This document shows positions 378 to 12,761 of a stretch of 12,761 nt of DNA, piece after piece (position 1 is the first letter of the stretch; each line of letters starts with the position of its first letter). The stretch comes from Candidatus Zhuqueibacterota bacterium (GTDB lineage Bacteria; BS750m-G25): NCBI GenBank assembly GCA_016783505.1, contig JADHWK010000065.1, forward strand, positions 1 to 12,761. The letters are read 5' to 3'. Under the pieces are notes generated by a model. The model was given only the letters and a program-made list of their open reading frames with translations, searched no databases and was not told the DNA's origin. The position numbers were made by a program, and so were the translations under genes.

Positions 378-1145
378 ATGATTATTCCATCCATTGCTTT
401 TTTCTGTTTCGGTAGCATTGTTGGGAGCTTTCTCAATACCGTTATATATCGGGTTCCCCGTCATGAGTCTTTATTATTTTCCTTTTCATACTGTCCTCAG
501 TGCGGTGAAAAAATACACTTCTGGGATAACATTCCCATCATAAGCTTTTTGATTCTTGGAGGGAGATGCCGCTATTGTAAGAAACCCATCCCACTCAGGT
601 ATTTTTTAGTAGAACTGGTGACCGCCTTTTTATTTATGATCTCCTATTTTAAATATGGACTGAGCTATGAACTTATCTTCTTTGCATTCCTGGCTTTCAT
701 ATTGGTTATCTTAACTTTTACTGACCTGGAAAAAAGAAGAATCCCTAATTCAGTAGTCATTGCAGGAATTTTTTTTGGTCTTTACATGTCCTTGATCTTC
801 TGGCCGCTGGCCTTTATTGATTCCTTGCTTGGCTTTTTAGTTGGGTGCGTTATGCTTCTGTTTTGGGCTGTTATGGGAAAGCTGATTTTTGGGAAGGAAA
901 GTTTAGGATGTGGGGACATAAAACTTGCGGCTATGATCGGGATTTTTCTGGGGGCGCGGGACATCCTGTTGGCCCTGTTCTTGGGCTTTCTGTTGGCGAC
1001 GGTGGGGGGGGTCCTTTTGATTTTAATGCGAAGGTTGCGATGGGACAGCCGGATGCCGTTTGCCCCCTTTTTGGCGGCTGGTTCTCTGGGAACATTATTT
1101 TTGGGTAACTCCATTTTTGCATGGTATGGAAAGTTACTGGGATAA
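378..1145 (+). CDS. pilD: Prepilin leader peptidase / N-methyltransferase (PilD/GspO family)
   Basis: This inner-membrane aspartic protease cleaves prepilin leader peptides on the cytoplasmic side and, in the classical bifunctional form, N-methylates the new first residue. The 255 residues match the family length and begin FGSIVGSFLNTVIYRVP. The zinc-binding cysteine pairs are C39/C42 (CPQC) and C64/C67 (CRYC), which are usual for bifunctional members. The two catalytic aspartates are D116, in TDLEKRRIPN, and D180, in GCGDIK. Several hydrophobic segments alternate with short polar loops, as expected for about eight membrane helices. An AGGTGAG ribosome-binding site lies 5 nt before the ATG at 378. 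The gene is only 10 nt after the minor-pilin gene, so both are probably co-transcribed. Oddity: a run of eight G at 1004-1011 sits inside the coding region. Confidence 0.93.
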   Translation: MIIPSIAFFCFGSIVGSFLNTVIYRVPRHESLLFSFSYCPQCGEKIHFWDNIPIISFLILGGRCRYCKKPIPLRYFLVELVTAFLFMISYFKYGLSYELIFFAFLAFILVILTFTDLEKRRIPNSVVIAGIFFGLYMSLIFWPLAFIDSLLGFLVGCVMLLFWAVMGKLIFGKESLGCGDIKLAAMIGIFLGARDILLALFLGFLLATVGGVLLILMRRLRWDSRMPFAPFLAAGSLGTLFLGNSIFAWYGKLLG

Positions 1146-1223
1146 AAACTTTCAGAAAAAGAATAATGCAAAATTCAAAATTATTAAAAAGGGTCACTCC
1201 AAAAGAGTTCACAATTTACGTAT

Positions 1224-1380
1224 CTGTTTAGCTAAGTGTAATCTTGTCATTGCGATCCCGAAGTTTCGGGAGAAGCAATCTGTATCATTATAAATAAAAA
1301 GATTGCTTCGTCATCCCGAATACTCGGGATTCCTCGCAATGACAGTAAAAATTTTATTTTTTCTTCAAACGGCTAAACAG
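1224..1380. repeat. Composite nested inverted repeat in the pilD / pilX-like gap
   Basis: The outer arms CTGTTTAGC (1224-1232) and GCTAAACAG (1372-1380) match perfectly. Inside them lie a left arm at 1246-1281 (GTCATTGCGATCCCGAAG...) and a right arm at 1300-1343 whose reverse complement begins GTCATTGCGAGGAATCCCGA; both end towards the centre in AGCAATCT when read inward. Each arm also holds its own hairpin of the form TCCCGA-N4-TCGGGA (1256-1271 and 1314-1329). The structure looks like a dispersed intergenic repeat (REP- or MITE-like) rather than a simple terminator. It takes up about half of the 318-nt gap at 1146-1463, in which I see no gene. Confidence 0.75.
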
Positions 1381-1422
1381 TTACCAATTTACAGTGACAT
1401 TTTTGGTCAATCATTTTGCAAT

Positions 1423-1455
1423 TTGCCTGCCTATGGGTCGCACGCAGACAGGCAA
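1423..1455. repeat. Inverted repeat just upstream of the pilX-like gene
   Basis: TTGCCTG (1423-1429) pairs with CAGGCAA (1449-1455) across a 19-nt loop. The flanks are A+T rich, and the TTG used as the start of the next gene lies 9 nt beyond the right arm, so the repeat directly abuts the coding region. It may be a further dispersed element; no T-run follows it, so I do not call it a terminator. Confidence 0.5.
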
Positions 1456-1463
1456 TTTAAATT

Positions 1464-2441
1464 TTGAAATTTGAATTTCCTGGTGTATTCGTGGCTTCAT
1501 GGCTAAGCAGCTACAAATCTGAAGAAGGTAGTATCCTGGGGATGGTCTTGATTTTCTTCGTGATCCTGACCATTGTCGGTACTGCATTTCTTAGCATGGC
1601 TTCCCAGGAAGTGATGCTCAGCAGACGCTGGGTGCTGCGGGTGCAGGCGATGGGCTTGGCTGAGGGTGGAATAAATATTGGTTTATGGCGAATAAATCAT
1701 GGGCCAGATTTATGTGGTACATTTTCTAATAGTTTTATGTCGGTTACTTATGATTCTTTATCCATGACCTTAACCTCCAATGGTACATCTGGAAATGTAT
1801 CAAAAACGGTATCTGTGGAATTGTATAAAGATCATCCGTTTAACCATGTTGTCGCTTACAATACTCTATTGGACACCAGTAATTATCATATAAATTATCT
1901 GAAAGGGCACGGCATTAAGTATTTCAATCCGTTACCTCAAGTTAGTATGGATTACTACGATACTTCAGGTGTTGGTAATTATCACCATGCTGGGGACACC
2001 ACCTTTAGCGCTACGCTTGATAGTGGGATTCACTACATAGTTGGCGATGTGTGGATGAGGAGCGGAAGTAGTCTAAATGGTACAATAGTCGTTATGGGTG
2101 GTATAAAATTTACTGGAAGTGTAACTATACAGGCACAACAGATGCCTGACAGCTCTCTCTATTATCCTGCCATAATAGTTAGGGATACGGCGGAGACAGA
2201 TATTTCCGGTACTCCTCTGCTGACTATAAAAGGAGCGGTATTTTCAACGGGGTACGTGAATTTCAAAGGGGATACCCTTACGGGACCCATTGTGGCGGAC
2301 AGGGTAGAACTTAAAAGCAATGTAGTAATTACTGATTATGGCAGTGATACCTATTACCAATATCCCCCGGGCTTTGTGGGGCCGGATAATTACGATTGGG
2401 ATAAATTTATTAAAAAGGGGAGCTGGCAGAGCTTCGATTGA
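1464..2441 (+). CDS. PilX-like minor pilin / pilus assembly protein
   Basis: This is a 325-residue protein with one N-terminal hydrophobic helix (about residues 24-46) in the context EEGSILGMVLIFFVILTIVG, followed by an amphipathic stretch ending LAEGGINIGLW. That pattern is typical of the PilX N-terminal domain of type IV pilus minor pilins, where E/R-G-S/A precedes the helix. The C-terminal half has repeated short beta-strand units rich in G, V and T (for example GDVWMRSGSSLNGTIVV and later GPIVADRVELKSNVVI), suggesting a beta-solenoid, as in PilX-like proteins with adhesin-type tails. The start is uncertain: TTG 1464 and GTG 1491 are both possible and neither has a good ribosome-binding site. 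The upstream repeat runs almost up to the start. The gene is A+T rich compared with pilM. It is separated by repeats from both neighbours. Confidence 0.65.
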   Translation: MKFEFPGVFVASWLSSYKSEEGSILGMVLIFFVILTIVGTAFLSMASQEVMLSRRWVLRVQAMGLAEGGINIGLWRINHGPDLCGTFSNSFMSVTYDSLSMTLTSNGTSGNVSKTVSVELYKDHPFNHVVAYNTLLDTSNYHINYLKGHGIKYFNPLPQVSMDYYDTSGVGNYHHAGDTTFSATLDSGIHYIVGDVWMRSGSSLNGTIVVMGGIKFTGSVTIQAQQMPDSSLYYPAIIVRDTAETDISGTPLLTIKGAVFSTGYVNFKGDTLTGPIVADRVELKSNVVITDYGSDTYYQYPPGFVGPDNYDWDKFIKKGSWQSFD

Positions 2442-2636
2442 ATGTAACAGTTCACCACGGAATCTCATCAGTCGGGCGCCTGACTGACGGAACTACACAG
2501 AAGTGTTCCGCTATCAGCAATCAGTCATCAGATATCAGCAATAAGTAATCAACAACAGCCATCTTTGTTCCCGAACCATCGGGAACTTGTCCCGACACCT
2601 CGGGATTAGTGGCTTAACTGTTACGATTGAATAAAC
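2442..2636. repeat. Repeat-rich spacer before pilM
   Basis: No gene is visible. Contents in order: a 20-nt hairpin TCAGTCGGGCGCCTGACTGA (2468-2487), which has a relative with three mismatches on the opposite strand at 10920-10939; short direct repeats of ATCAGCAAT / ATCAGATATCAG type (about 2513-2545); and two adjacent hairpins of the window-wide family TCCCGA-N4-TCGGGA at 2569-2584 (extended to GTTCCCGA...TCGGGAAC, 2567-2586) and 2590-2605. The motif GGCTTAACTGTTAC (about 2612-2625) resembles the outer arm of the repeat upstream of the pilX-like gene. No clear promoter or ribosome-binding site for pilM can be seen in this stretch. Confidence 0.7.
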
Positions 2637-3707
2637 ATGCTGTTCAAGGAGAAAAGAACTGTCGGGCTGGACATCGGGAGCAACGCCATAAAGGCGGTCG
2701 GCTTGAGGAAGGGGAAGAAAATTCAGGTGGATTTTCTGAAAGCAATTGATCTATATCAAAGCCGAAAGGTAAGCCGACCCGGGGACTTAAGCGATACTTT
2801 ATTAGTGCAGGTGGTTCGGGAATTATTAGGGGGAATAAAAGGGGGATTAAAAAAAGTGAAGACTTCCGTTTCAAGCACCACCGCTTTAACCCGGATGATG
2901 GAATTGCCCCTCCTGCCTGACGATGAACTAAAGGCCGCCATCCGGTGGGACGTGGCCCACATCATTCCCTTCGATATGGAAGGGGTTGAGTTTGACTACC
3001 ACGTTTTAGATGTAGATAAGAACCGAAACCGGCAGATGGTGATCGTTGGTCTGGTGGCCGGGGAGGAGATGAACAGACATCTGGACATCCTCTCCCGGAC
3101 GAATCTGGAGCCCGAGATCGTGGACATTGATACCCTGTCCGTGTATAACTGTTTTGTGGCCCTGCATGACCTCCAAGAAGGGGAAACGGAGGCCGTCCTG
3201 GATATAGGATCGGAGCGGACAAACCTAATCATGCTTAATCCCCCCCATAACCCCTTCTTCAAGGTCATTACCCTTGGGGGTAACACCCTCACCCGGGCCA
3301 TTGAGAAACATTTTCATACCCCCTTTATCAATGCGGAAAAGCGGAAGCTTTTGGTGGACTGCCAACGGGTCAACGATGCCTGGCTTATGGAGCAGAGTCA
3401 GGACTTTCAGTGGGTGAAATCCCTGCTGGGGATGGTGGCAGGGCTCGCCGAGGGGGTAAAAAGGGCGGATATTTACTACCAGATTATGCAGGGGGTGGGG
3501 GGGATAAAAAGGGTATTCCTAACCGGGGGGGGATCGAAGCTGAAAAACCTTGATGTCCTGCTGGCCAACGACCTTCAGATCCCCGTCATCCACTGGAACC
3601 CCCTTAAGGAGGAAAAACTGGGGATTAACGATCAGCAAGATGAGGTTGAGGAGTGGGGACCCCATTTCGCCGTTGCTTTAGGGCTGGCCCTGCGGGAGGA
3701 GGTATGA
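2637..3707 (+). CDS. pilM: Type IV pilus assembly protein PilM, actin-like ATPase
   Basis: PilM is a cytoplasmic, actin-fold, ATP-binding protein that recruits PilN by binding its short N-terminal tail and so anchors the PilNOP subcomplex. The 356 residues match the family length. The first phosphate loop is VGLDIGSNAIKAV (D12), the second is VLDIGSERTNL (near residue 190), and the adenosine motif is FLTGGGSKL (near residue 298). The segment MMELPLLPDDELKAAIRWDV is very typical of PilM. The ATG at 2637 gives the usual N-terminus but has no visible Shine-Dalgarno sequence, because a repeat-rich spacer lies directly upstream. The end overlaps pilN by ATGA. Two G runs lie late in the gene: seven G at 3497-3503 and eight at 3525-3532, the latter encoding the Gly-rich adenosine motif. 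Confidence 0.93.
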   Translation: MLFKEKRTVGLDIGSNAIKAVGLRKGKKIQVDFLKAIDLYQSRKVSRPGDLSDTLLVQVVRELLGGIKGGLKKVKTSVSSTTALTRMMELPLLPDDELKAAIRWDVAHIIPFDMEGVEFDYHVLDVDKNRNRQMVIVGLVAGEEMNRHLDILSRTNLEPEIVDIDTLSVYNCFVALHDLQEGETEAVLDIGSERTNLIMLNPPHNPFFKVITLGGNTLTRAIEKHFHTPFINAEKRKLLVDCQRVNDAWLMEQSQDFQWVKSLLGMVAGLAEGVKRADIYYQIMQGVGGIKRVFLTGGGSKLKNLDVLLANDLQIPVIHWNPLKEEKLGINDQQDEVEEWGPHFAVALGLALREEV

Positions 3708-4300
3708 GATTGATCCAGTTGAATCTTTTGGGAACCACCGCCATCAGGAAGAAACGGAAAAAGATCAGGTTTTATATCACATTTGCCTACATCTGTGTCT
3801 GGCTGTTTTCCATCTACACCCTTTTTTATATCTATAAGACCAATCTCTTTATTTCGACGGTCTATCAAAAGGAGATTCAAAAAATCCATACTGACATCGC
3901 TTCGTTGAGGCCTAAGTTTGCCAACATTGATAAATTATATCAGGAGAAGAAGACCATTGAAGCTAAAAAGAGCCTCTATCGGCAGGATTTTTATCGGCCG
4001 GGCAGTTGGTTGGATAAGATGATGGCCCTCTCAAGGAAAATTCCCGAAAATATCAGGCTGGAGGAACTATCAGTGAACACTAAACCCGATAAAGGTAAAG
4101 GAAAGGAGAAAATCAAACTCGTAGGATATACCCTTATTGACCGGGAGCAACAGGACGTGACCCAGCTCAATGTCTTTAAACGATTTCTTGAGGATGATGG
4201 GCGATTTATGGAGGGTCTGGAGAAAATCGAGGTGCTTCAGGGTCGGATCGGAAAGAAAGGAAAGGACCCGGTGATGACGTTTGTCCTCGGGGTCTATTAG
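3704..4300 (+). CDS. pilN: Type IV pilus inner-membrane protein PilN
   Basis: PilN is a bitopic inner-membrane protein that joins cytoplasmic PilM to periplasmic PilO. The 198-residue product starts MRLIQLNLLG, matching the conserved short cytoplasmic tail (I-N-L-L type) that docks into PilM. A basic stretch (RKKRKK) is followed by one membrane helix at about residues 24-44, then a periplasmic coiled-coil-like segment and an alpha/beta domain. The chosen ATG at 3704 overlaps the pilM stop and has GGAGG (3697-3701) as ribosome-binding site. An in-frame start 17 codons upstream would lie inside pilM and lacks this signal. The operon is tight: 14 nt separate it from pilO. Assignment rests on tail motif, topology and gene order. 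Confidence 0.88.
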   Translation: MRLIQLNLLGTTAIRKKRKKIRFYITFAYICVWLFSIYTLFYIYKTNLFISTVYQKEIQKIHTDIASLRPKFANIDKLYQEKKTIEAKKSLYRQDFYRPGSWLDKMMALSRKIPENIRLEELSVNTKPDKGKGKEKIKLVGYTLIDREQQDVTQLNVFKRFLEDDGRFMEGLEKIEVLQGRIGKKGKDPVMTFVLGVY

Positions 4301-4314
4301 ATTCAGGAGGAACC

Positions 4315-4881
4315 TTGAAGAAGAGAACATCGGTTTTAAAAAATATCTTTAAACTTCACTGGATGTTGATGGCTATTTTCGTGTATTCCGGTGCCTTAGC
4401 CTTCGGGAATTTTGTGATTATCAAACCGCAAATACGGAAATACGAAACCCTGAAAAAGCAGCGAGAGTCCCTGGATGATATCTACCTCAGGGTTCGATCC
4501 ATTGATGTGGAACAGGTCCTGAAGTACCTCCAGGCCGAACTGGAAGAATCCCAGAAGCTTAAAACCGCTTTTGAATCCCGTACGATAAGGAAAGAGGATT
4601 TTTCGACGGTTCTGGGTGAGCTGAACCGAATCGTGCAAAAAACCGGGGTTAAGCTCCAGTCTATTGATCCCTCAAATGAGTCGGATGGGATTCTCGGTAG
4701 CTTTCAAAAAAAGCCAGTACGGATCAGCTTTCAGGGTTCTTATCCCCAGTTCTTGACTTTTCTGGGGGAGCTGGAGCAGTCCCGATTTTGGCTGTTGATT
4801 GACTCTTACAGCGTTATGGACGATCCCAAAGATCGGAAGAATCATATCTTCAAAATCGTCGTTTATTCTATTGTATCTTAA
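4315..4881 (+). CDS. pilO: Type IV pilus inner-membrane protein PilO
   Basis: PilO is the partner of PilN in the periplasmic alignment complex. The 188 residues show a basic N-terminus, one membrane helix (about residues 16-36), a coiled-coil region (residues 38-80, rich in K, E, L, Q) and a C-terminal ferredoxin-like domain including FQGSYPQFLTFLGELEQSRFW. That last segment is the recognisable PilO stretch (G-x-Y-x-x-hydrophobic... F-L-x-x-L-E). The start is TTG at 4315, preceded by AGGAGG at 4305-4310; no ATG in frame sits nearer. It lies 14 nt after pilN, and the next gene starts 4 nt after its stop, so translational coupling is likely. Confidence 0.88.
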   Translation: MKKRTSVLKNIFKLHWMLMAIFVYSGALAFGNFVIIKPQIRKYETLKKQRESLDDIYLRVRSIDVEQVLKYLQAELEESQKLKTAFESRTIRKEDFSTVLGELNRIVQKTGVKLQSIDPSNESDGILGSFQKKPVRISFQGSYPQFLTFLGELEQSRFWLLIDSYSVMDDPKDRKNHIFKIVVYSIVS

Positions 4882-4885
4882 ATAT

Positions 4886-5401
4886 ATGGAAGGGAAGAAA
4901 AAAATTATCATTCTGATGGCCCTGGTTTTCTTTTTGGCCCTTGCCTGGTTTCTGGTTTTGAGAAATCCGGGGCAGGGGGCCACCGTTCAGACTTGGGTCA
5001 GCGACGACGACCAGAGGATCGAAGTGGCCCTAATTGACAATATTATCCAGGAAATCCAGGACCTGAAGGGACCGGTGGAGGGCGATTTGGGGTCTGAGCT
5101 CACTACCTTGGCTACCCTGGATTTGGGACGGGTGCGGGATCCCTTTACCTTCGTCGAACAAAAGAAATCCATCGGTAGGAAGAAACCACCCGGGGGTAAA
5201 AAAAGGAATATGCGAATCCCCCGGCTTGACCTCACCGGCATAATTTTTGACCGGGAGAAACCGGCGGCCATCATCAACGGTGAGGTGTATATCGAAGGGA
5301 ACATCGTTAAAGGGTTTCGAGTGGTGCGAATATCCAAAAGTGGGGTTAAACTGGTCTCCAAGGAGATCCAGATTTACTTAAAAGCCCCCGAATTTGATTG
5401 A
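4886..5401 (+). CDS. pilP: Type IV pilus protein PilP-like, membrane-anchored
   Basis: PilP bridges the PilNO complex to the N-terminal domains of the secretin PilQ in the periplasm. The 171 residues begin with a short basic tail and one hydrophobic helix (residues 7-25). The family motif RDPF is at residues 84-87, after a low-complexity linker. The C-terminal beta domain (LTGIIFDREKPAAIINGE and on) matches the PilP/GspC homology-region layout. Classical PilP is a lipoprotein; here no lipobox cysteine is seen, so it looks anchored by a membrane helix like GspC. The ATG at 4886 lies 4 nt after the pilO stop. A longer frame from 4799 would overlap pilO heavily and is not preferred. The ribosome-binding site is weak. 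A shortened relative follows directly downstream. Confidence 0.8.
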   Translation: MEGKKKIIILMALVFFLALAWFLVLRNPGQGATVQTWVSDDDQRIEVALIDNIIQEIQDLKGPVEGDLGSELTTLATLDLGRVRDPFTFVEQKKSIGRKKPPGGKKRNMRIPRLDLTGIIFDREKPAAIINGEVYIEGNIVKGFRVVRISKSGVKLVSKEIQIYLKAPEFD

Positions 5402-5410
5402 GGAGTGGAA

Positions 5411-5791
5411 GTGATAACAAAGAAACAGCGGTTGATCAAACTGGCACTTATTTACCTCATATTGTGTATAATTCCTCTCTTTATTTTTCAGTTTGGTTCT
5501 CATTCAAAAAGTCAAAAGAAACTCATTGACGTTGGGAAAATCAGAGAATCTTTTGTTCAAAAAGTTTAAGAAACGATTAAAGAGAAAGGATTGGAGCAGT
5601 CTATTTCCAAACTGGTTTTTGATAAAAAGTCTTTCGGTTTGACCACGGGTGATAGGGATTGTCTAAAAGTTGGTGATGTTGTGATGGGTTATAAGATAGT
5701 GAAAATTGATTCAAATAAAGTCACTTTGGTAAATGGCGAGCAGAAAATTGAACTATCTGTAAATGATTTGTTTGTAAGATCATTTGAATAG
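5411..5791 (+). pseudogene. pilP-like paralogue interrupted by one in-frame TAA
   Basis: A GTG at 5411, with AGGAG 5 nt upstream, opens a frame with a basic tail and one membrane helix (LIKLALIYLILCIIPLFIF). The frame stops at TAA 5567-5569 after 52 residues, yet continues open in exactly the same frame to TAG 5789-5791. The downstream part contains LKVGDVVMGYKIVKIDSNKV, which lines up with the C-terminal part of the PilP protein next to it (YIEGNIVKGFRVVRISKSGV). Read through, it would be a 126-codon product: membrane anchor, short linker, PilP/GspC-like beta domain. It appears to be a shortened duplicate of pilP lacking the RDPF region. A CAA-to-TAA change would explain the break. It could be a recent pseudogene, a sequencing error, or a true two-part gene. 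It is more A+T rich than pilP. Confidence 0.65.
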
Positions 5792-5801
5792 GGGGGGAGA
5801 T

Positions 5802-6461
5802 ATGAAAAAATCAATAATATTTTTTATCCTACTTCTAATACCAGTGTTGCTCACCTGCGATAAAGACATCTTAGACCCGAAGAGTATATCTCTGGCGACC
5901 TTGAAAGGAAGTGTGGTGGAATCGGTGCTTCAAAATCCATTATCTGGGGTTACGGTGGGGGTTTCCAACCATACCGAGTCTGTACAGACCGATTCGATGG
6001 GACAGTATGCCTTAGAAGTGGAGTTGGAAACCTCCATCTCTTCTGAGGTAGTGACGCTAACCGCCCAGAAAGCGGGTTACGACCCCTTTGAACTTAAAGA
6101 TGTGACTGTCGAAGCTAATAAAACGGTAGAGATCCCTAAAATTTCACTGGATCCAGAGACATATATTGCCCAAATGACCGGTTCGGTGGTGGACACGGGG
6201 GGAATTGCTCTGGAGGGGGTCTTGATTACGGTTTTCAACCATGCGGAGACCAGCCTTACCGATAGTTCCGGGGTGTTCAGTTTTATTGTGGTGATTGATG
6301 ATCCAGTTGAAGATGTATTTGTAGGGGCCACTAAGGCGGGTTACGGGTATGCGGATCCTAATATTGATCCTGAGAAGGGGATTATGGTTACCCTAGAGTC
6401 CGAAGAGACTACTGTAGTTCCTACTGTTGTTTTAAAACCCACATCGTGGGGAAAACAATAA
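5802..6461 (+). CDS. Lipoprotein with two carboxypeptidase-regulatory-like repeats
   Basis: The 219-residue product starts with a lipoprotein-type signal, MKKSIIFFILLLIPVLLTC, with C19 as the likely lipidated residue (Thr before Cys is less usual) and Asp at +2. Two tandem beta-sandwich repeats follow, about residues 34-117 and 125-213. Both share G-S-V-V, L-x-G-V, N-H-x-E, T-D-S-x-G-x-(Y/F) and K-A-G-Y, the pattern of CarboxypepD_reg / PEGA-like domains. These fold as Ig-like sandwiches and often occur in surface proteins. The start at 5802 follows a seven-G run and GGGGAGA, acting as ribosome-binding site. It lies between the pilP genes and pilQ, the position where a secretin partner or pilotin may be encoded. 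A role in placing or stabilising the secretin is inference only. Confidence 0.7.
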   Translation: MKKSIIFFILLLIPVLLTCDKDILDPKSISLATLKGSVVESVLQNPLSGVTVGVSNHTESVQTDSMGQYALEVELETSISSEVVTLTAQKAGYDPFELKDVTVEANKTVEIPKISLDPETYIAQMTGSVVDTGGIALEGVLITVFNHAETSLTDSSGVFSFIVVIDDPVEDVFVGATKAGYGYADPNIDPEKGIMVTLESEETTVVPTVVLKPTSWGKQ

Positions 6462-6473
6462 GGATTGGATAAG

Positions 6474-7886
6474 ATGATAAAACCTTCCAGAAGAAAACAA
6501 TTTCTGCTTATTCCCTTCTGTCTTGGTATTAGCTTTTTGATTTCCACCGGGGGGGGATATCCCCCTAACCCCTTGTGGGCGCAGGAGGGTGTTAAAACCC
6601 AGGAAACGACTTTAATATCCATAAACCTGAAAAGGGTTTCCATCAATAATGTGCTGAAGGTGCTGGGTGAAAAAACAGGCCTTAAGTTTGTCGCCGACCC
6701 CGCCATTCAGGACCGAAGGATTACCGTGAATTTAAATAGGGTCCTTCCCGACGAAGCAATTTCCGTCATCATGGAATCTAACGGTCTTGGCTATCGTAGG
6801 ATCGAAGGGGTGGACGTTTACATGGTAAGCGATTTAAGCAAGATCATGGCCCATACGATCCTCACAAGCGTTCCCTGTCAATTTGCCGACGCTGTGAAAC
6901 TGCAGCAGATACTTAACCAGATCGTTACCAAGGGTGTTGGTGTAGTATTGGCTGACGAGCGTACCAACACCATCATTATTAAAGAGAGCCCCGGGGTTAT
7001 TGCTTATCTGGAAAAGTTAATCCAGGAGTTGGATCAGCCAACGCCCCAGGTATACATTCAGGCGGCGATCGCTGAGATATCACTGACCAAAGGAAAAGAG
7101 ACAGGGGTGGAATGGCTGTGGAAGGACCCTCGATTATTGAGTCCATCAGACAAGGTGGGGACCCGGTTTGATCTGAGATCGCCCGCCCTCGAAGATGAGA
7201 TAAAATACTTTGACAACGAAGGCAATCCCCTCGGGAGGGGCCTGCCCATTGGCCAGGGGCTGGGGATTGGTGTCATAAACCTCCATATTGATGCCGTCCT
7301 TTACTTCCTGCAGACGGATTATGAATTGAATCTCCTCTCCCGTCCCTATTTAGTAACACTAGACAACCAGGTAGCAACTATTGAGGTCGGTGACCAAATT
7401 CCCTATAAGGTTTTAAGCCAGTATGGGATAACCTCATATGAATTTAAGGCGGCCACCATTAAACTTCTGGTGAGACCACATATCAACAATGACTCGACGA
7501 TTACCATAGAGCTGGAGCCCAGCGCGGATTTTCAAAGCGGTATGACACCTGATGGGGTGCCCATAATCGCCACCCGAAGGGCCAAAACCCGGATTACGGT
7601 GGACAATGGGAATACCATTGTCATCGGGGGACTCATGCGGGAGTCGGAGACCAAGACGGTAAGCAAGGTGCCTTTGTTGGGTTCCATACCTTTATTAGGG
7701 ATCCCCTTTAGAAGCCGGGTCTATAAAAAGGAGAAAACCGAATTGGTGATTCTTATTACCCCAATGATAGTTACCAAAGAAGTGGTTGAGAAGGTCCTTC
7801 AACCCGAGGGGGAACTGTCGAAGAAAGTTTACCAAAAAACAAAGAAAACTGACATTAATAAAGATACCCTAAAAGTACCCCAATAA
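6474..7886 (+). CDS. pilQ: Type IV pilus secretin PilQ
   Basis: PilQ forms the outer-membrane multimeric channel through which the pilus leaves the cell. The 470 residues include a signal peptide, probably cut after LWA at residue 36. The N0/STN domain is at about 47-120 (INLKRVSINNVLKVLGEKTG). The N1 secretin_N domain is at about 125-190 (VLADERTNTIIIKESP). The conserved secretin barrel spans about 190-440, including NTIVIGGLMRES and the signature VPLLGSIPLLGIPFR near residues 399-413. It is short for PilQ: the AMIN domains found in Pseudomonas-type PilQ are absent. ATG 6474, with AAGGA 9 nt before it, is preferred to TTG 6465, which sits directly on that ribosome-binding site. An eight-G run (6549-6556) and the palindrome GGGGGATATCCCCC (6552-6565) lie within the signal-peptide codons. 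Confidence 0.92.
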   Translation: MIKPSRRKQFLLIPFCLGISFLISTGGGYPPNPLWAQEGVKTQETTLISINLKRVSINNVLKVLGEKTGLKFVADPAIQDRRITVNLNRVLPDEAISVIMESNGLGYRRIEGVDVYMVSDLSKIMAHTILTSVPCQFADAVKLQQILNQIVTKGVGVVLADERTNTIIIKESPGVIAYLEKLIQELDQPTPQVYIQAAIAEISLTKGKETGVEWLWKDPRLLSPSDKVGTRFDLRSPALEDEIKYFDNEGNPLGRGLPIGQGLGIGVINLHIDAVLYFLQTDYELNLLSRPYLVTLDNQVATIEVGDQIPYKVLSQYGITSYEFKAATIKLLVRPHINNDSTITIELEPSADFQSGMTPDGVPIIATRRAKTRITVDNGNTIVIGGLMRESETKTVSKVPLLGSIPLLGIPFRSRVYKKEKTELVILITPMIVTKEVVEKVLQPEGELSKKVYQKTKKTDINKDTLKVPQ

Positions 7887-7919
7887 TGAATCATCAGGTT
7901 ATTTCAAAGGGGGTTTATT

Positions 7920-8336
7920 ATGAGGGAAAGCCAAACCATTCGGGTCATGGTTATTGACGATGAAAAGGCGACCCGGGATGTATTTGAGGAGATCTTTGAA
8001 GGGGAGAACTTTTCTGTCTTTCCAGCGGAGGACGGACTTAAGGCCATCGCTGAGATGAAAAAAAGACAGTACGACTTGGCGTTTATAGATATTCGCATGC
8101 CCCAGATAGATGGTCTGGAAACGCTGAGGAGGCTCAAGAAAATCCACCCCGATCTAATGGCAGTTATGATATCCGGATTTCGGGATGAGGATATCATAGA
8201 AAAGGCCCTGAAGATTGGGGCGGTGGGTTATCTATATAAGCCCCTCGATATTCAGGACATTCTGGGGGTGGCGCTTAAATGTTCCCATCAGTTGGGGGTA
8301 CCTAATCAGGTAGAAATAGTGGAAACTAATTCTTAG
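7920..8336 (+). CDS. Single-domain (CheY-like) response regulator
   Basis: The product is a 138-residue receiver domain without an output domain. The acidic pocket is D13/D14, the phospho-acceptor is D57 (AFIDIRMPQIDG), the switch Ser is S85 (VMISGF) and the conserved Lys is K107 (YKPLD). It starts at ATG 7920 after AAAGGGGGT, 33 nt after pilQ, so it probably belongs to the pilus transcript. No histidine kinase is in the window. By analogy with PilG/PilH- or FrzZ-like regulators it may adjust pilus assembly or polarity, but that role is inferred from position only. AGGAGG directly overlaps its TAG stop, as if another gene once followed. Confidence 0.88.
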   Translation: MRESQTIRVMVIDDEKATRDVFEEIFEGENFSVFPAEDGLKAIAEMKKRQYDLAFIDIRMPQIDGLETLRRLKKIHPDLMAVMISGFRDEDIIEKALKIGAVGYLYKPLDIQDILGVALKCSHQLGVPNQVEIVETNS

Positions 8337-8779: not shown

Positions 8780-8803
8780 AAAAAACCCCGATTTCAATCG
8801 GGG
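8780..8803 (-). terminator. Rho-independent terminator of the minus-strand redox operon
   Basis: On the minus strand the sequence reads CCCCGATT-GA-AATCGGGG followed at once by six T. This is a perfect eight-pair G+C-rich stem with a T-run. It lies about 300 nt beyond the stop of the flavoprotein gene, in the right orientation to end that operon. The A-run on the plus-strand 5' side could let it act in both directions, but the T-run after the stem exists only on the minus strand. Confidence 0.7.
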
Positions 8804-9109
8804 TAACTAGACGTCTCGGAAATTCTAAAAACTTATTGAAAACATTAGAGTTATTCAAGCATTTCTGGAAGGACATCAGAATATCAGTGAATTAGTAGGA
8901 AGGTTACCAGGATATCAGAATACCAGATCGTTTTCTCGGGGCTATGTTTATCCCATTTACTTGTCCGTCTGGTTTTCTGGCTTTTCTGATACTCTTCCCA
9001 TCCCGAACCTTCGGGACTGATAAACTGATATACTTATTCCCACCGTCCCATTGTTCCAGTTGGGGCGTAGCCCCTAAGTTCATGAATCAAAGATGTTTTG
9101 GGTCATGGG
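8804..9109. other. Non-coding 3' region of the redox operon with short repeats
   Basis: No gene is seen. The stretch holds ATCAG-type repeats (ATCAGAATATCAG at 8875-8887, GATATCAGAATACCAG at 8911-8926) with an imperfect inverted relative further on (CTGGTTTTCTGG...TCTGATACT, about 8971-8993). It also holds the hairpin TCCCGA-ACCT-TCGGGA (9001-9016) and the hairpin GGGGC-GTA-GCCCC (9062-9074), 36 nt past the flavoprotein stop. The last one lacks a T-run and is at most an RNA 3'-end stabiliser. Confidence 0.6.
9001..9016. repeat. TCCCGA-N4-TCGGGA hairpin, copy 6
   Basis: A perfect stem, extended to seven pairs (TCCCGAA-CC-TTCGGGA). It is the same family as the copies upstream of the pilX-like gene and of pilM. 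Confidence 0.75.
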
Positions 9110-10786
9110 TTATCTGATAGTACCCTGGTAGATGGTGGTGAGCTGTTTTTCCCTGACTAAGGGGTTGCTGTAGTCCGGCAGGATCATGGGGGCGATCCTA
9201 TCGGTTATAATGCCCGCTTCCTCCATCTCCTTATGATATCGTCTCACATGATCCAGGGTTAGTTCTCCGTCTTCTGGGGTTTCTTTTGCATAGATGGCCG
9301 CATTCTTGCCGGCAATCTGACCGAAGACGGTGACACCGAGCAGGGAGTTGCCCATCAGTCTGTTTTCACCGTGAACCCCGCCGGAGACCTCGCCCGCCAC
9401 AAACAAGCCGGGTATGGTTGTCTCGCATTTAGGATTGATCTCCAGACCACCATTCTGGTAATGAAGGGTGGGATAGATCAACATGGGCGCTTTGGAGATA
9501 TCAATTTCATATCTTTTGAAGAGGATAAATTTGCCCGGAAAATCTTTTTTCACTGTCCCTTCACCGTGCAACAAATCTATCATCGGCGAATCCAGCCAGA
9601 CCCCAACCTTGCCGGTGGGGGTGGGGACCCCCTTCTCCACATCAGGGAGGCACTCCCGAATTATGCTGGCTGCTTCCACATCCCGGGGCTCCCTTTCGTA
9701 GACGAACTGTTCCCCATCTATGTTCACCAGGTTGGCTCCGGCACCCCTGAATTTTTCCGTGATCAGGAGTCCCTCTGCCTGTTCGGGGAATACCGCTCCG
9801 GTGGGATGGTACTGAACCGTATGCAGAAAGCACAGTTTCACCCCGGCTCGATAGCCTATAACAACCCCATCCCCGGTGGCTCCATAATGATTGGTGGTCA
9901 TATAATTTTGTATGTGCAGCCTGCCGGAACCCCCGGTGGCAAAGATGACCGCTCTCGCCTTAATTACCAGGTATTCTTCTGTTTCCAGGTTATAAGCAAC
10001 GACGCCGGCGCAGTGGCCCTTTTCATTCAGAACCAACTCTATCACGGGGCAGAATTCCAACACCTTGATGTCCTCGGCTCGATTTCTGGCTTCGTCCCGA
10101 AGAGTGCGCATAATCTCCGCACCGGTAATGTCGGCCGCGTAGTGCATTCGCTTTCGGCTGGTTCCCCCCCCATGCAAGGCCTTTAATCTTCCATCAGTGA
10201 ACTTGGTGAACATGCATCCCAGGCTCTCCAGCCAGGCAATCGTCCTGGGGGCCTCGGTTACCAGGGTGTAGACCAACTCCGGGTCGTTGACGAAATGACC
10301 ACCTCCCATTATATCTAAATAATGGTAATAGGGAGAATCCTTTTCCTGCTTGATGGCCGCCTGAATGCCCCCTTCGGCCATCATCGTATTGGCATCACCA
10401 TGCCTGAGCTTGGTAACGATCATTACCTTGGCCCCCTGTTCCTGGGCCCGAAGGGCAGCGGCTGTCCCCGCCCCTCCCCCCCCAACGATCAAAATATCGG
10501 TCTGGTAGGTCACTTCGGAGAGATCCAGTTTGTCCGGGTCAACCCGACTCTTGGCTTCCAGCAGGTCAACGAACTCGTTACTTATGGCATAACCCTTGTT
10601 AGGACCTACCCTGATCTCCCTTCGATTTCCCTTGATAAAATCCGGATGGTGCTTTTTCAATATTTTTTCCCTTTCGGCGAGGGGGAGGGCGGGAAATTCT
10701 TCCCCCCTTTTCTTCCTTTCCAGCCGGGCCGGTCTTGTCTTTTCAACCTTCTTGATCAGTTCTTTTAAATCCGGCGTATAAGGCAT
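9110..10786 (-). CDS. Fumarate reductase / succinate dehydrogenase-type flavoprotein subunit
   Basis: This is the FAD-containing catalytic subunit of a fumarate reductase or related enzyme. Of 558 residues, the first ~95 are a charged extension not found in short family members; then come the Rossmann motif ILIVGGGGAGTAAALRA (G102-G107) and the flavin loop NTMMAEGG. Active-site elements are HTVQYHPTG (H327), EREPRDVEAAS (R368), YPTLHYQNGG (H442) and GEVSGGVHGENRLMGNSLL (R476). These match the four catalytic positions of FrdA/SdhA. Asn133 stands where covalent-FAD enzymes have His, so FAD is probably non-covalent. The ATG at 10786 is preceded by AGGAGG six nt upstream; a longer frame to 10822 lacks this. 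The C-terminal domain is short. L-aspartate oxidase is an alternative, but the Fe-S partners argue for a multi-subunit reductase. Confidence 0.85.
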   Translation of the reverse strand: MPYTPDLKELIKKVEKTRPARLERKKRGEEFPALPLAEREKILKKHHPDFIKGNRREIRVGPNKGYAISNEFVDLLEAKSRVDPDKLDLSEVTYQTDILIVGGGGAGTAAALRAQEQGAKVMIVTKLRHGDANTMMAEGGIQAAIKQEKDSPYYHYLDIMGGGHFVNDPELVYTLVTEAPRTIAWLESLGCMFTKFTDGRLKALHGGGTSRKRMHYAADITGAEIMRTLRDEARNRAEDIKVLEFCPVIELVLNEKGHCAGVVAYNLETEEYLVIKARAVIFATGGSGRLHIQNYMTTNHYGATGDGVVIGYRAGVKLCFLHTVQYHPTGAVFPEQAEGLLITEKFRGAGANLVNIDGEQFVYEREPRDVEAASIIRECLPDVEKGVPTPTGKVGVWLDSPMIDLLHGEGTVKKDFPGKFILFKRYEIDISKAPMLIYPTLHYQNGGLEINPKCETTIPGLFVAGEVSGGVHGENRLMGNSLLGVTVFGQIAGKNAAIYAKETPEDGELTLDHVRRYHKEMEEAGIITDRIAPMILPDYSNPLVREKQLTTIYQGTIR

Positions 10787-10919
10787 GGTAATCCTCCTGT
10801 CTCTTTCTACGTAATAGTCCACTACAGAATATCACGGAACTGAATAAGCAATCAGCAATCAGCTTTTGGTGTTCAACCCTTATTCAAGTTTCTTATATAT
10901 CTTTGTGTCTTGGTGTCTT

Positions 10920-10939
10920 TCAGTCAAATGCCCGACTGA
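10920..10939 (-). repeat. 20-nt hairpin between the Fe-S and flavoprotein genes
   Basis: On the minus strand it reads TCAGTCGGGCATTTGACTGA, with six-pair arms TCAGTC/GACTGA. It differs at three loop positions from the hairpin at 2468-2487. It lies in the 172-nt spacer (10787-10958) that separates the flavoprotein gene from the rest of its operon. That spacer also holds AATCAGCAATCAGC (about 10849-10862). Confidence 0.65.
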
Positions 10940-10958
10940 AGTGCCAGAACTGTCTCCT

Positions 10959-11738
10959 TTACAAATACTGGGTATTTTGCGGGGTCCAGAACTCATCGGC
11001 GCCCTCCGGTTCTGTTTCCCTCTCAACATATAATTTCTTCAGTTCGTCAGTGTCGGATTCCATCAGCTTTTTCAACCCCCCTTTGTATTTCCCCCCATCG
11101 AGGACGGAAACCATCTGGGCCAGATGCTCGGCTCTGGGGGCAAGGTATTTGGCGTAGAGTCTTCGGCATAGGATGGCTACATTAAACTGCACCTCCTCAG
11201 CCGGACATCGAGAGGCACAGAGGCCGCACATCACACAGTCAAAGGAGAGCTCCGCCACCCGCTCGACATTCCCCCGGATGGCCTGGGACATGTATTCCAT
11301 AACCTCAATGTCCATCGGGCATGACCGGGTGCAGGTATTGCAGCCTACACATTTGAATACCTCCGGATACAACTGGGCAATAGTGGACCCAGTGGGTTGA
11401 AGCTCGTCTATGTTGTAAATGGTTTTGTTGGCCGGGAAAAAGGGGATCTGGGTCAGGTACATGTTCGGTTTGACCACCGTCTGACAGGCCAGGCCCACCT
11501 CAATTCGGTAGGTGTCCGGCATCCGATATACGGTGCCGCAGGCCCCACAGATTCCTCCCCGGCATCCGCAGCCCCGAATGAGCTGGTAACCCGCATACTC
11601 CATGGCTTTCTGGATGGTTAAGGTATCGGGGACCTCATATCTTTTCCCCATAATAAAGACGGGGATCAAGCTTTCCCCCGCCGGGGCTTGGGCTTCTCCG
11701 CCCGCTTTCATTTTTTCTTGTGCTTCCCTATAGGCCAT
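10959..11738 (-). CDS. Ferredoxin-type Fe-S subunit (2Fe-2S plus two 4Fe-4S), TfrB N-half/FrdB-like
   Basis: This electron-transfer subunit belongs with the flavoprotein downstream. Its 259 residues carry a plant-type 2Fe-2S domain with GCGCRGGICGAC (C57, C59, C64, C67) and C85. Two full four-cysteine motifs follow: CVGCNTCTRSCP (130-141) and CVMCGLCASRCP (168-179). Classical FrdB/SdhB carries a 3Fe-4S cluster at the third site; two intact 4Fe-4S motifs are instead like HdrC and the methanogen thiol:fumarate reductase subunit TfrB. TfrB however has HdrB-like CCG domains after this region (about 490 residues in total), and these are missing here. The last ~70 residues are a charged tail of no known motif. 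ATG 11738 has GAGGAGGT as ribosome-binding site, placed inside the end of the MvhD-like gene, 4 nt upstream, so the two are coupled. Confidence 0.87.
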   Translation of the reverse strand: MAYREAQEKMKAGGEAQAPAGESLIPVFIMGKRYEVPDTLTIQKAMEYAGYQLIRGCGCRGGICGACGTVYRMPDTYRIEVGLACQTVVKPNMYLTQIPFFPANKTIYNIDELQPTGSTIAQLYPEVFKCVGCNTCTRSCPMDIEVMEYMSQAIRGNVERVAELSFDCVMCGLCASRCPAEEVQFNVAILCRRLYAKYLAPRAEHLAQMVSVLDGGKYKGGLKKLMESDTDELKKLYVERETEPEGADEFWTPQNTQYL

Positions 11739-11742
11739 TTTG

Positions 11743-12180
11743 TTACCTCCTCTCCTCAGTCCTCAGTTTTAGGGGGCCCAAGGATCTTATCTGTTCGGTA
11801 AATTCATTCATTACTTCCACAAATTTATTCCCCTCTGCGGCTGAGATCCATTCCAACCGAAGTCTCCCCTTTTCCAACCCAAACTGGATTAATAATTTCT
11901 CAAGCAGGGTCATTCTCCGTAGAGTCTTGTAATTTCCCTCTTGATAATGGCAATCTCCGGGGTGACAACCGCCGACAAGGACCCCGTCTGCCCCCTGCTC
12001 AAACGCCCACAGGATGTGTTGTGGGTCAAGCCGACTGGAACACATGAGGCGGATGTTTACCCCGTTGGGGGCATATTGCATTCGGGAAGTTCCCGCCAGA
12101 TCGGCTCCGGCATAAGTACACCATTTGCACAGAAAACAGATAATCTTCGGCTCAAATCCGTTGCTATCGGTATTAGGCAT
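11743..12180 (-). CDS. MvhD/FlpD-type electron-transfer subunit (hydrogenase delta family)
   Basis: This 145-residue protein carries the full signature of the MvhD/FlpD family (PF02662): FLCKWCTYAGADLAG (C18, C21), LMCSSRLDP (C47), GADGVLVGGCHPGDCHYQEGN (C72, C77; motif cut to its core) and RLEWISAAEG. In methanogens MvhD carries a 2Fe-2S cluster and passes electrons from a hydrogenase or formate dehydrogenase to HdrA. Here it is first in an operon with a TfrB/FrdB-like and an FrdA-like protein, with no hydrogenase or HdrA in the window. ATG 12180 is chosen because GGGAG lies upstream; an in-frame ATG ten codons earlier (12210) lacks a ribosome-binding site. The gap to the next gene is 4 nt. 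Identity is firm; its electron partner is unknown. Confidence 0.88.
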   Translation of the reverse strand: MPNTDSNGFEPKIICFLCKWCTYAGADLAGTSRMQYAPNGVNIRLMCSSRLDPQHILWAFEQGADGVLVGGCHPGDCHYQEGNYKTLRRMTLLEKLLIQFGLEKGRLRLEWISAAEGNKFVEVMNEFTEQIRSLGPLKLRTEERR

Positions 12181-12240
12181 TTTTTGCTTTCTCCCTAACG
12201 AAAGTTTCATTTAGCGTTTGATCCCATAACATTTTTTGAT

Positions 12241-12660: not shown

Positions 12661-12761
12661 ATGCAGTGTCCATTTTTAGAAGAGGTTTTGGTAAGATATT
12701 GTGAAGCTTATCCAGTGAAGAAGATGATTCCTTCGAGTAGCTCAGATAAGCTCAGTTTATG
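12661..12761 (+). CDS. Start of a small Cys-containing protein under sigma-54 control (3' truncated)
   Basis: The frame starts MQCPFLEEVLVRYCEAYPVK and is open to the window end (33 residues). AAAGGAGGT at 12648-12656 is a near-perfect ribosome-binding site; ATG 12661 is preferred to the adjacent in-frame ATG 12658, which is too close to it. The early C-P-F-L-E-E-V...Y-C spacing (Cys at 3 and 14) resembles the N-terminus of small Cys-rich proteins I recall at the head of sigma-54-controlled operons in deltaproteobacteria and relatives, but I cannot name a family or function. Only the first third or less of the gene may be present. Confidence 0.65.
   Translation, partial: MQCPFLEEVLVRYCEAYPVKKMIPSSSSDKLSL

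Follow-up and report, generated by a model that had tools for sequence, protein, structure and literature searches.

We analyzed a 12,761-nucleotide stretch of DNA from Candidatus Zhuqueibacterota (contig JADHWK010000065.1; hereafter, the window) and describe an operon on its minus strand that encodes an MvhD-type adaptor, an iron-sulfur subunit (FES) and a FrdA/TfrA-like flavoprotein (FRD). The triplet is hypothesized, with a probability of roughly 0.6, to be the catalytic arm of a soluble fumarate reductase that works on an Hdr-type electron-bifurcating core in the fumarate-reducing direction. The proposal rests on sequence comparison, namely on the conservation of functional residues in FES and FRD, the recurrence of hdr and mvhD genes beside FES-FRD in other bacteria, and the ancestry of the window's MvhD.

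The MvhD-FES-FRD operon

Open reading frame analysis of the window gave the minus-strand gene order mvhD (11743..12180), FES (10959..11738) and FRD (9110..10786). No gene was found on the mvhD strand in the 550 bases between mvhD and the contig end (12211..12761), a region without hdrA in cis, and a terminator-like hairpin (ACCCCGATTGAAATCGGGGT followed by a T-rich tail; a consensus match only) lies 3' of FRD at 8785..8804 on the minus strand. The operon therefore consists of three genes with mvhD first, and it is a stand-alone operon. The window spans its entire 12.8-kb contig, part of a 2.5-Mb host genome that is 60% complete, so more distant neighbors are out of view. For mvhD, an alternative upstream ATG at 12210 is possible. 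A GTG start for FRD at 10822 was considered and found unlikely, as relatives begin with MPYT and the ATG at 10786 has an AGGAGG sequence 6 nt upstream.

The product of the first gene matches Pfam FlpD (2.1e-52) and scores 176.8 bits against the FlpD/MvhD profile, for which the cut-off is 22.3, and is thus an MvhD subunit. In known complexes, MvhD/FlpD is a [2Fe-2S] adaptor that docks on HdrA.

FES, with 259 amino acids, contains Fer2 and 4Fe-4S dicluster domains (Pfam). Residue invariance in FES and FRD was judged over 28 relatives, and all 12 ligand cysteines of FES are invariant in 28/28, in the arrangement C-x4-C-x2-C-x17-C (2Fe-2S) followed by two CxxCxxCxxxCP motifs (4Fe-4S). Because both cubane motifs retain their full four cysteines (CxxCxxCxxxC) in all 28, FES does not have the 3Fe-4S pattern of quinone-linked enzymes. 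It aligns with positions 19-169 only of the 488-position TfrB profile, which corresponds to the N-terminal third, and no CCG motif of the HdrB-like C-terminal part of TfrB occurs in its 259 residues. Its C-terminal half is HdrC-like, and its predicted structure (mean predicted local distance difference test score, pLDDT, 82) matches, among others, the HdrC chains of Mvh-Hdr complexes and their relatives, with low template modeling (TM) scores. The FES and FRD models are of moderate quality with low to moderate TM-scores against the PDB, and were used as support only. Apparent fusions of FES with MvhD or HdrB at three loci (L172, L190 and L194) were rejected; the extra residues match no seed and resemble an out-of-frame upstream extension.

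FRD carries a FAD_binding_2 domain (Pfam, 2.7e-76) and, on alignment to E. coli FrdA, the dicarboxylate-site residues H327, E344, R347, R368, H442 and R476 (numbered in the 558-amino-acid form), all invariant in relatives; their counterparts in E. coli FrdA are the established catalytic residues. The domain and these residues place FRD in the FrdA/SdhA/NadB superfamily, and its predicted structure (mean pLDDT 76) matches E. coli FrdA with an E-value of 4.8e-30. The histidine that binds flavin adenine dinucleotide (FAD) covalently is replaced by an invariant asparagine (N133), an extension of about 92 residues conserved across the family precedes the FAD domain, and a Pfam search of FRD gave no match to Succ_DH_flav_C. 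The best of its NCBIfam matches is the TfrA model NF004900, which all 28 relatives also match, yet the 351 bits of FRD are below that model's cut-off of 718, and FRD lies far under the curated cut-offs for the SdhA, FrdA, TfrA and NadB families.

A preliminary description, made from the letters of the window, had reported this gene order with intact motifs and without a cytochrome b or other membrane anchor beside it. The 12 cysteines and the fumarate-site residues that are invariant in relatives bear out the first point; as to the second, neither a cytochrome b gene nor one for any other anchor adjoins the operon or lies elsewhere in the window.

Relatives and their gene neighborhoods

Scanning 84,980 species genomes, we found at least 529 FES relatives, 80 of which were taken as loci with neighbor identities checked by profiles; at almost every one of the 80, FRD lies next to FES. 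The pair is present in 33 of 386 bacterial genomes (~8%) in a sample spread over the domain. Counting the window and two loci found previously, 34 neighborhoods were surveyed by tblastn over about 10 kb. Genes for hdrA lie near 22 of these, mvhD near 20, hdrB and hdrC near 19 each, and mvhAG near 11. Where at least 2.5 kb of upstream sequence was available (n=27), hdrA was found at 21/27 loci, mvhD at 18/27 and genes for C4/tricarboxylic acid (TCA) cycle enzymes at 11/27. SdhC is poorly conserved. Genes resembling sdhC/sdhD were found at 0/34 loci (0/27 of those with the longer upstream sequence), the queries being SdhC and SdhD of the host genome only, so that a divergent anchor could escape. 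Proximity of hdr and mvhD by chance is unlikely, because the host genome has just four FlpD matches in 2.5 Mb.

The neighborhoods with Hdr fall into three settings. In Syntrophaceae and other Deltaproteobacteria, the order is HdrA-HdrC-HdrB-HdrA(long)-MvhD-FrhB-like-FES-FRD, often followed by SucC-SucD. In Clostridia and some Deltaproteobacteria, it is HdrB-HdrC-HdrA-MvhD-Fer4-AsrA-like-AsrB-like-FES-FRD, in which the AsrA, AsrB, Fer4 and MvhD set resembles Flx in its composition. Some loci of this setting end in malic enzyme and fumarase, or in SucCD and KorABC, and Clostridium algoriphilum (DSM 16153) has the full operon, with Mae-FumAB after FRD. The third setting combines HdrC-HdrB-HdrA with MvhD, FES and FRD, often with the MvhG-MvhA NiFe hydrogenase, Kor, SucCD or FumAB, and occurs in KSB1, Zixibacteria, Aminicenantes, Edwardsbacteria, candidate division B38 and others; a metagenome-assembled genome (MAG) of Zixibacteria has HdrC-HdrB-HdrA-MvhD-FES-FRD-MvhG-MvhA. 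The window belongs to this third setting. Overall, mvhAG hydrogenase genes and Flx-like NADH modules recur as neighbors, as do fumarase, malic enzyme, SucCD and KorABC, and these neighbors point to fumarate/succinate as the substrate.

Many relatives have a separate hdrB, which lies directly upstream of FES at several loci and whose products mostly retain both CCG motifs. The CCG part of TfrB, described in the preliminary description as missing, is indeed absent from FES, but since a separate hdrB is so often present, it appears to have been split off and not lost. With both CCG motifs mostly kept, HdrB may have a disulfide role. The preliminary description had also proposed looking for the triplet in other genomes and for HdrA or hydrogenase genes near it. 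The 27- and 34-locus counts given above answer this: MvhD co-occurs with FES-FRD across many unrelated anaerobes, and the triplet is not unique to one genome. The soluble reductase tied to HdrA or hydrogenase that it envisaged thus agrees with the operons of relatives, which carry hdrABC and mvhD and often mvhAG or Flx-like genes; in the window itself no hdr gene is found in cis, and the proposed Hdr link draws on those relatives.

Origin of MvhD and Hdr genes of the host genome

The window's MvhD falls in a clade (support 0.865) with the MvhDs of loci L170, L043, L070, L057, L046 and L168, all of which have HdrA-MvhD-FES-FRD. Its identity reaches 74% to MvhDs of FRD operons, versus 52% to the MvhD of contig C1 of its own genome, and descent from an Hdr-FRD operon is therefore most likely. 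As a separate observation, the FRD-operon MvhD of Gemmatimonadota bin29 (L039, near 6747) has an in-frame TGA (GG-TGA-HPGDC) where the window's MvhD has cysteine; this codon probably specifies selenocysteine.

HdrA, HdrB and HdrC genes do occur elsewhere in the host genome. On contig C1, malic enzyme and Kor genes accompany those for HdrC, HdrB, a long HdrA, MvhD and two fusion proteins, one HdrBC-like and the other HdrA-MvhD. Contig C61 encodes HdrC, HdrB and an N-terminal piece of HdrA together with NuoE/NuoF-type genes, a 2Fe-2S HdrA and an MvhD truncated at the end of the contig. Compared with the HdrAs of the closest operons, the C1 HdrA-MvhD fusion is 44-47% identical over its full length and the C61 N-terminal piece 51-58% over about 260 amino acids. 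A canonical SdhC-SdhD-SdhA-SdhB set with anchors lies with a fumarase subunit on contig C50 (L136, 3680-7449), which makes the anchor-less enzyme an additional one, distinct from it. Contig C27 carries a sulfhydrogenase-like NiFe hydrogenase, and contig C85 a fumarase and a malate dehydrogenase-like gene.

In two HdrA genes on C1 (L005; 10303-12840 and 14576-17638, both on the minus strand), one in-frame TGA occurs, each time at an equivalent conserved site (DCSI-TGA-ILGPKM), and a tRNA-Sec on contig C37 exceeds the Rfam cut-off. Both C1 HdrAs are probable selenocysteine proteins that standard gene callers would split.

Proposed mechanism

In the proposed cytoplasmic complex, MvhD would dock on HdrA and relay electrons between the donor and the HdrA flavin, the donor in some relatives being H2 via MvhAG or NADH via Flx-like subunits. 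The flavin would split each electron pair, sending one electron to ferredoxin while the second passes by way of HdrC/HdrB-type clusters to FES, FRD and finally fumarate. In this host, the clusters on C1 or C61 would provide an HdrA(BC) partner in trans. Where the genes lie beside KorABC, reduced ferredoxin could feed 2-oxoglutarate synthesis. H2 stands at -414 mV and NADH at -320 mV. Fumarate/succinate has an E0' of +33 mV (PMC5861303), so the downhill branch would easily pay for ferredoxin.

On a broader scale, we consider it an evenly balanced proposal that FES-FRD is the core of a distinct and widespread class, a plug-in arm on varied electron sources, in which the Hdr versions bifurcate and fumarate reduction drives ferredoxin reduction. 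The sources would comprise Mvh-Hdr (H2), Flx-Hdr (NADH), FrhB-like modules, and membrane ferredoxin with heptaheme cytochrome c.

Evidence against the proposal and alternative explanations

Several observations weigh against an Hdr-linked complex in this host. No hdr gene is present in the operon or anywhere on the 12.8-kb contig; the Hdr link is carried over from relatives and the partner in trans is assumed, and the real Hdr partner may lie in the unsequenced part of the genome. Distances among MvhDs correlate only moderately with those among FES and FRD (Spearman 0.58 and 0.53), and this is not strong evidence because shared ancestry alone yields such a correlation. In a fourth setting (Dethiobacter-type loci and Dehalococcoidia), FES-FRD has no Hdr nearby and is found with fumarase and malic enzyme. 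A minority of relatives, moreover, swap Hdr/MvhD for a membrane ferredoxin and a heptaheme cytochrome c. Five loci (L040, L067, L069, L072 and L177) have a dicluster ferredoxin with a single C-terminal transmembrane helix ahead of FES, and at all of these but L040 a 7-heme cytochrome c (7 CXXCH, one transmembrane segment) comes before that ferredoxin. L040 has a multi-CXXCH open reading frame at the cytochrome c position, L180 has the transmembrane-helix ferredoxin only, and all six loci are without MvhD. Because of this minority and the Hdr-less loci, FES-FRD appears able to use other donors. A membrane anchor in conserved neighbors had been named in the preliminary description as a finding that would refute its reading; it applies to this minority, which uses another electron source, but not to the MvhD-bearing group.

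Among the Hdr-less loci, L085, L108 and others of Dehalococcoidia have fumA and fumB split by FES, FRD, a ferredoxin and an acyl-CoA dehydrogenase-like protein of about 390 amino acids, all on one strand.

The alternative that survives best, which we regard as unlikely, is the reversed complex: a confurcating succinate dehydrogenase in which reduced ferredoxin would push electrons from succinate to H2 or NAD+ without a membrane potential. Such complexes are reversible in principle, the Syntrophaceae operons include SucCD, and the loci next to Kor, SucCD and FumAB could take part in an oxidative cycle just as in a reductive one. However, the quinone-linked SdhCDAB of the same genome can oxidize succinate, and the operon of the succinate producer Pseudoclostridium thermosuccinogenes is assigned to fumarate reduction (PMC7282089). 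Since SdhCDAB is available for the reverse reaction, the net direction here, as far as gene content indicates, is most likely fumarate to succinate.

A somewhat less probable alternative is that the Hdr link was lost in this host, so that FES would be fed directly by ferredoxin or another soluble carrier, with MvhD as a remnant or general adaptor. The absence of hdr genes in cis, unlike in the closest relatives, and the Hdr-less FES-FRD loci just described would fit such a loss; against it are the intactness of MvhD, its position as first gene and its retained FRD-operon ancestry, along with the Hdr genes on other contigs.

We consider it improbable that the system is a split thiol:fumarate reductase, in which HdrB-type CCG clusters would oxidize a dithiol (DsrC-like or a small thiol) and feed FES-FRD, with no direct transfer from HdrA in one complex. 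FES does correspond to the N-terminal portion of TfrB, several loci have hdrB immediately upstream of FES, two CCG motifs are kept in most of the scanned HdrB-type proteins, and TfrA, albeit under its cut-off, is the best curated match of FRD. The MvhD, hydrogenase or NADH modules in many operons, however, make thiols unnecessary and, to our knowledge, coenzyme M and coenzyme B are not expected in these bacteria. Least probable is that FRD acts on another 2-enoate or in an aspartate oxidase-like reaction, for although it lies far under the curated family cut-offs, its aligned dicarboxylate-site residues are all invariant and its recurring neighbors are fumarase, malic enzyme, SucCD and KorABC.

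Adjoining genes

A putative gene cluster for type IV pili or for type II secretion adjoins the operon on the other strand (378-8336, plus strand), and comprises genes for a prepilin peptidase, PilM/PilN/PilO-like proteins, a secretin and a response regulator, named by sequence appearance. At ~12661-12761 on the plus strand, a divergent gene start with a good ribosome-binding site (MMQCPFLEEVLVRYCEAYPVKKMIPS...) is cut by the contig end.

Significance and comparison with known systems

Fumarate respiration is usually taught as quinone- and membrane-dependent. If our proposal of a soluble bifurcating fumarate reductase is correct, the drop from H2 or NADH to fumarate would be turned into reduced ferredoxin for energy conservation by Rnf or Ech, and this ferredoxin would also be usable by KOR in the reductive TCA cycle. 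It would further explain the anchor-less frdAB of MAGs annotated as thiol:fumarate reductase or as incomplete fumarate reductase. The proposal is directly testable, because about 8% of sampled genomes have the pair and a named strain, C. algoriphilum DSM 16153, has the full operon.

The concept of an Hdr-coupled fumarate reductase is already known as a proposal. An Flx-Hdr-linked version was put forward for P. thermosuccinogenes in a 2019 preprint (Koendjbiharie and van Kranenburg, cited in PMC7282089), and the transcripts of its 'succinate operon', which covers Flx-Hdr, fumarate reductase and fumarase, increase together (PMC7282089). In the description given there, a two-gene fumarate reductase lies beside seven Flx-Hdr genes and a fumarate hydratase, a gene order equal to that of clostridial FES-FRD loci (e.g., L115). 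In contrast, the window's operon is without Flx genes and without hdr in cis, and several of its nearest relatives have a NiFe hydrogenase instead. The characterization of the system as little-described is therefore correct, with the qualification that this version and related clusters (PMC6315080, PMC8542988) have been reported. In the open-access literature, which leaves most subscription papers outside, we found no biochemical work on an Hdr-linked fumarate reductase and no description of the breadth of the family, the cross-phylum hydrogenase-linked MvhD-FES-FRD layout, the heptaheme membrane variant or the triplet with Hdr in trans.

Two further likenesses are by description. Tubeworm symbionts and Thioflavicoccus have tfrAB with flxABCD-hdrABC and korABCD (PMC6315080, PMC11636981), in a layout that resembles L098, L100 and L116; the complex is proposed to feed fumarate reductase and KOR, is Flx-linked and is named a thiol:fumarate reductase. 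Candidatus Celaenobacter (Cloacimonadota) has fumarate reductase (TFR), KOR (OGOR), fumarase, SucCD, Mvh and Hdr in one cluster, which resembles the hydrogenase-linked loci and whose parts are described as linked in function, heterodisulfide being what Mvh-Hdr acts on (PMC8542988).

Methanogen TfrAB is likewise soluble and pairs an FrdA-like subunit with a 2Fe-2S/HdrC-like subunit; relative to it, FES is without the CCG half of TfrB, and FRD has the N-terminal extension and the TfrA score below cut-off (351 against 718 bits). Finally, Moorella MetFV-HdrABC-MvhD and methanogen MvhADG-HdrABC share with the proposed complex an HdrA core, MvhD and a catalytic arm for a high-potential acceptor, although the arm in those systems is methylene-tetrahydrofolate reductase, or HdrB acting on heterodisulfide, rather than a FrdA-type enzyme (PMC5861303).

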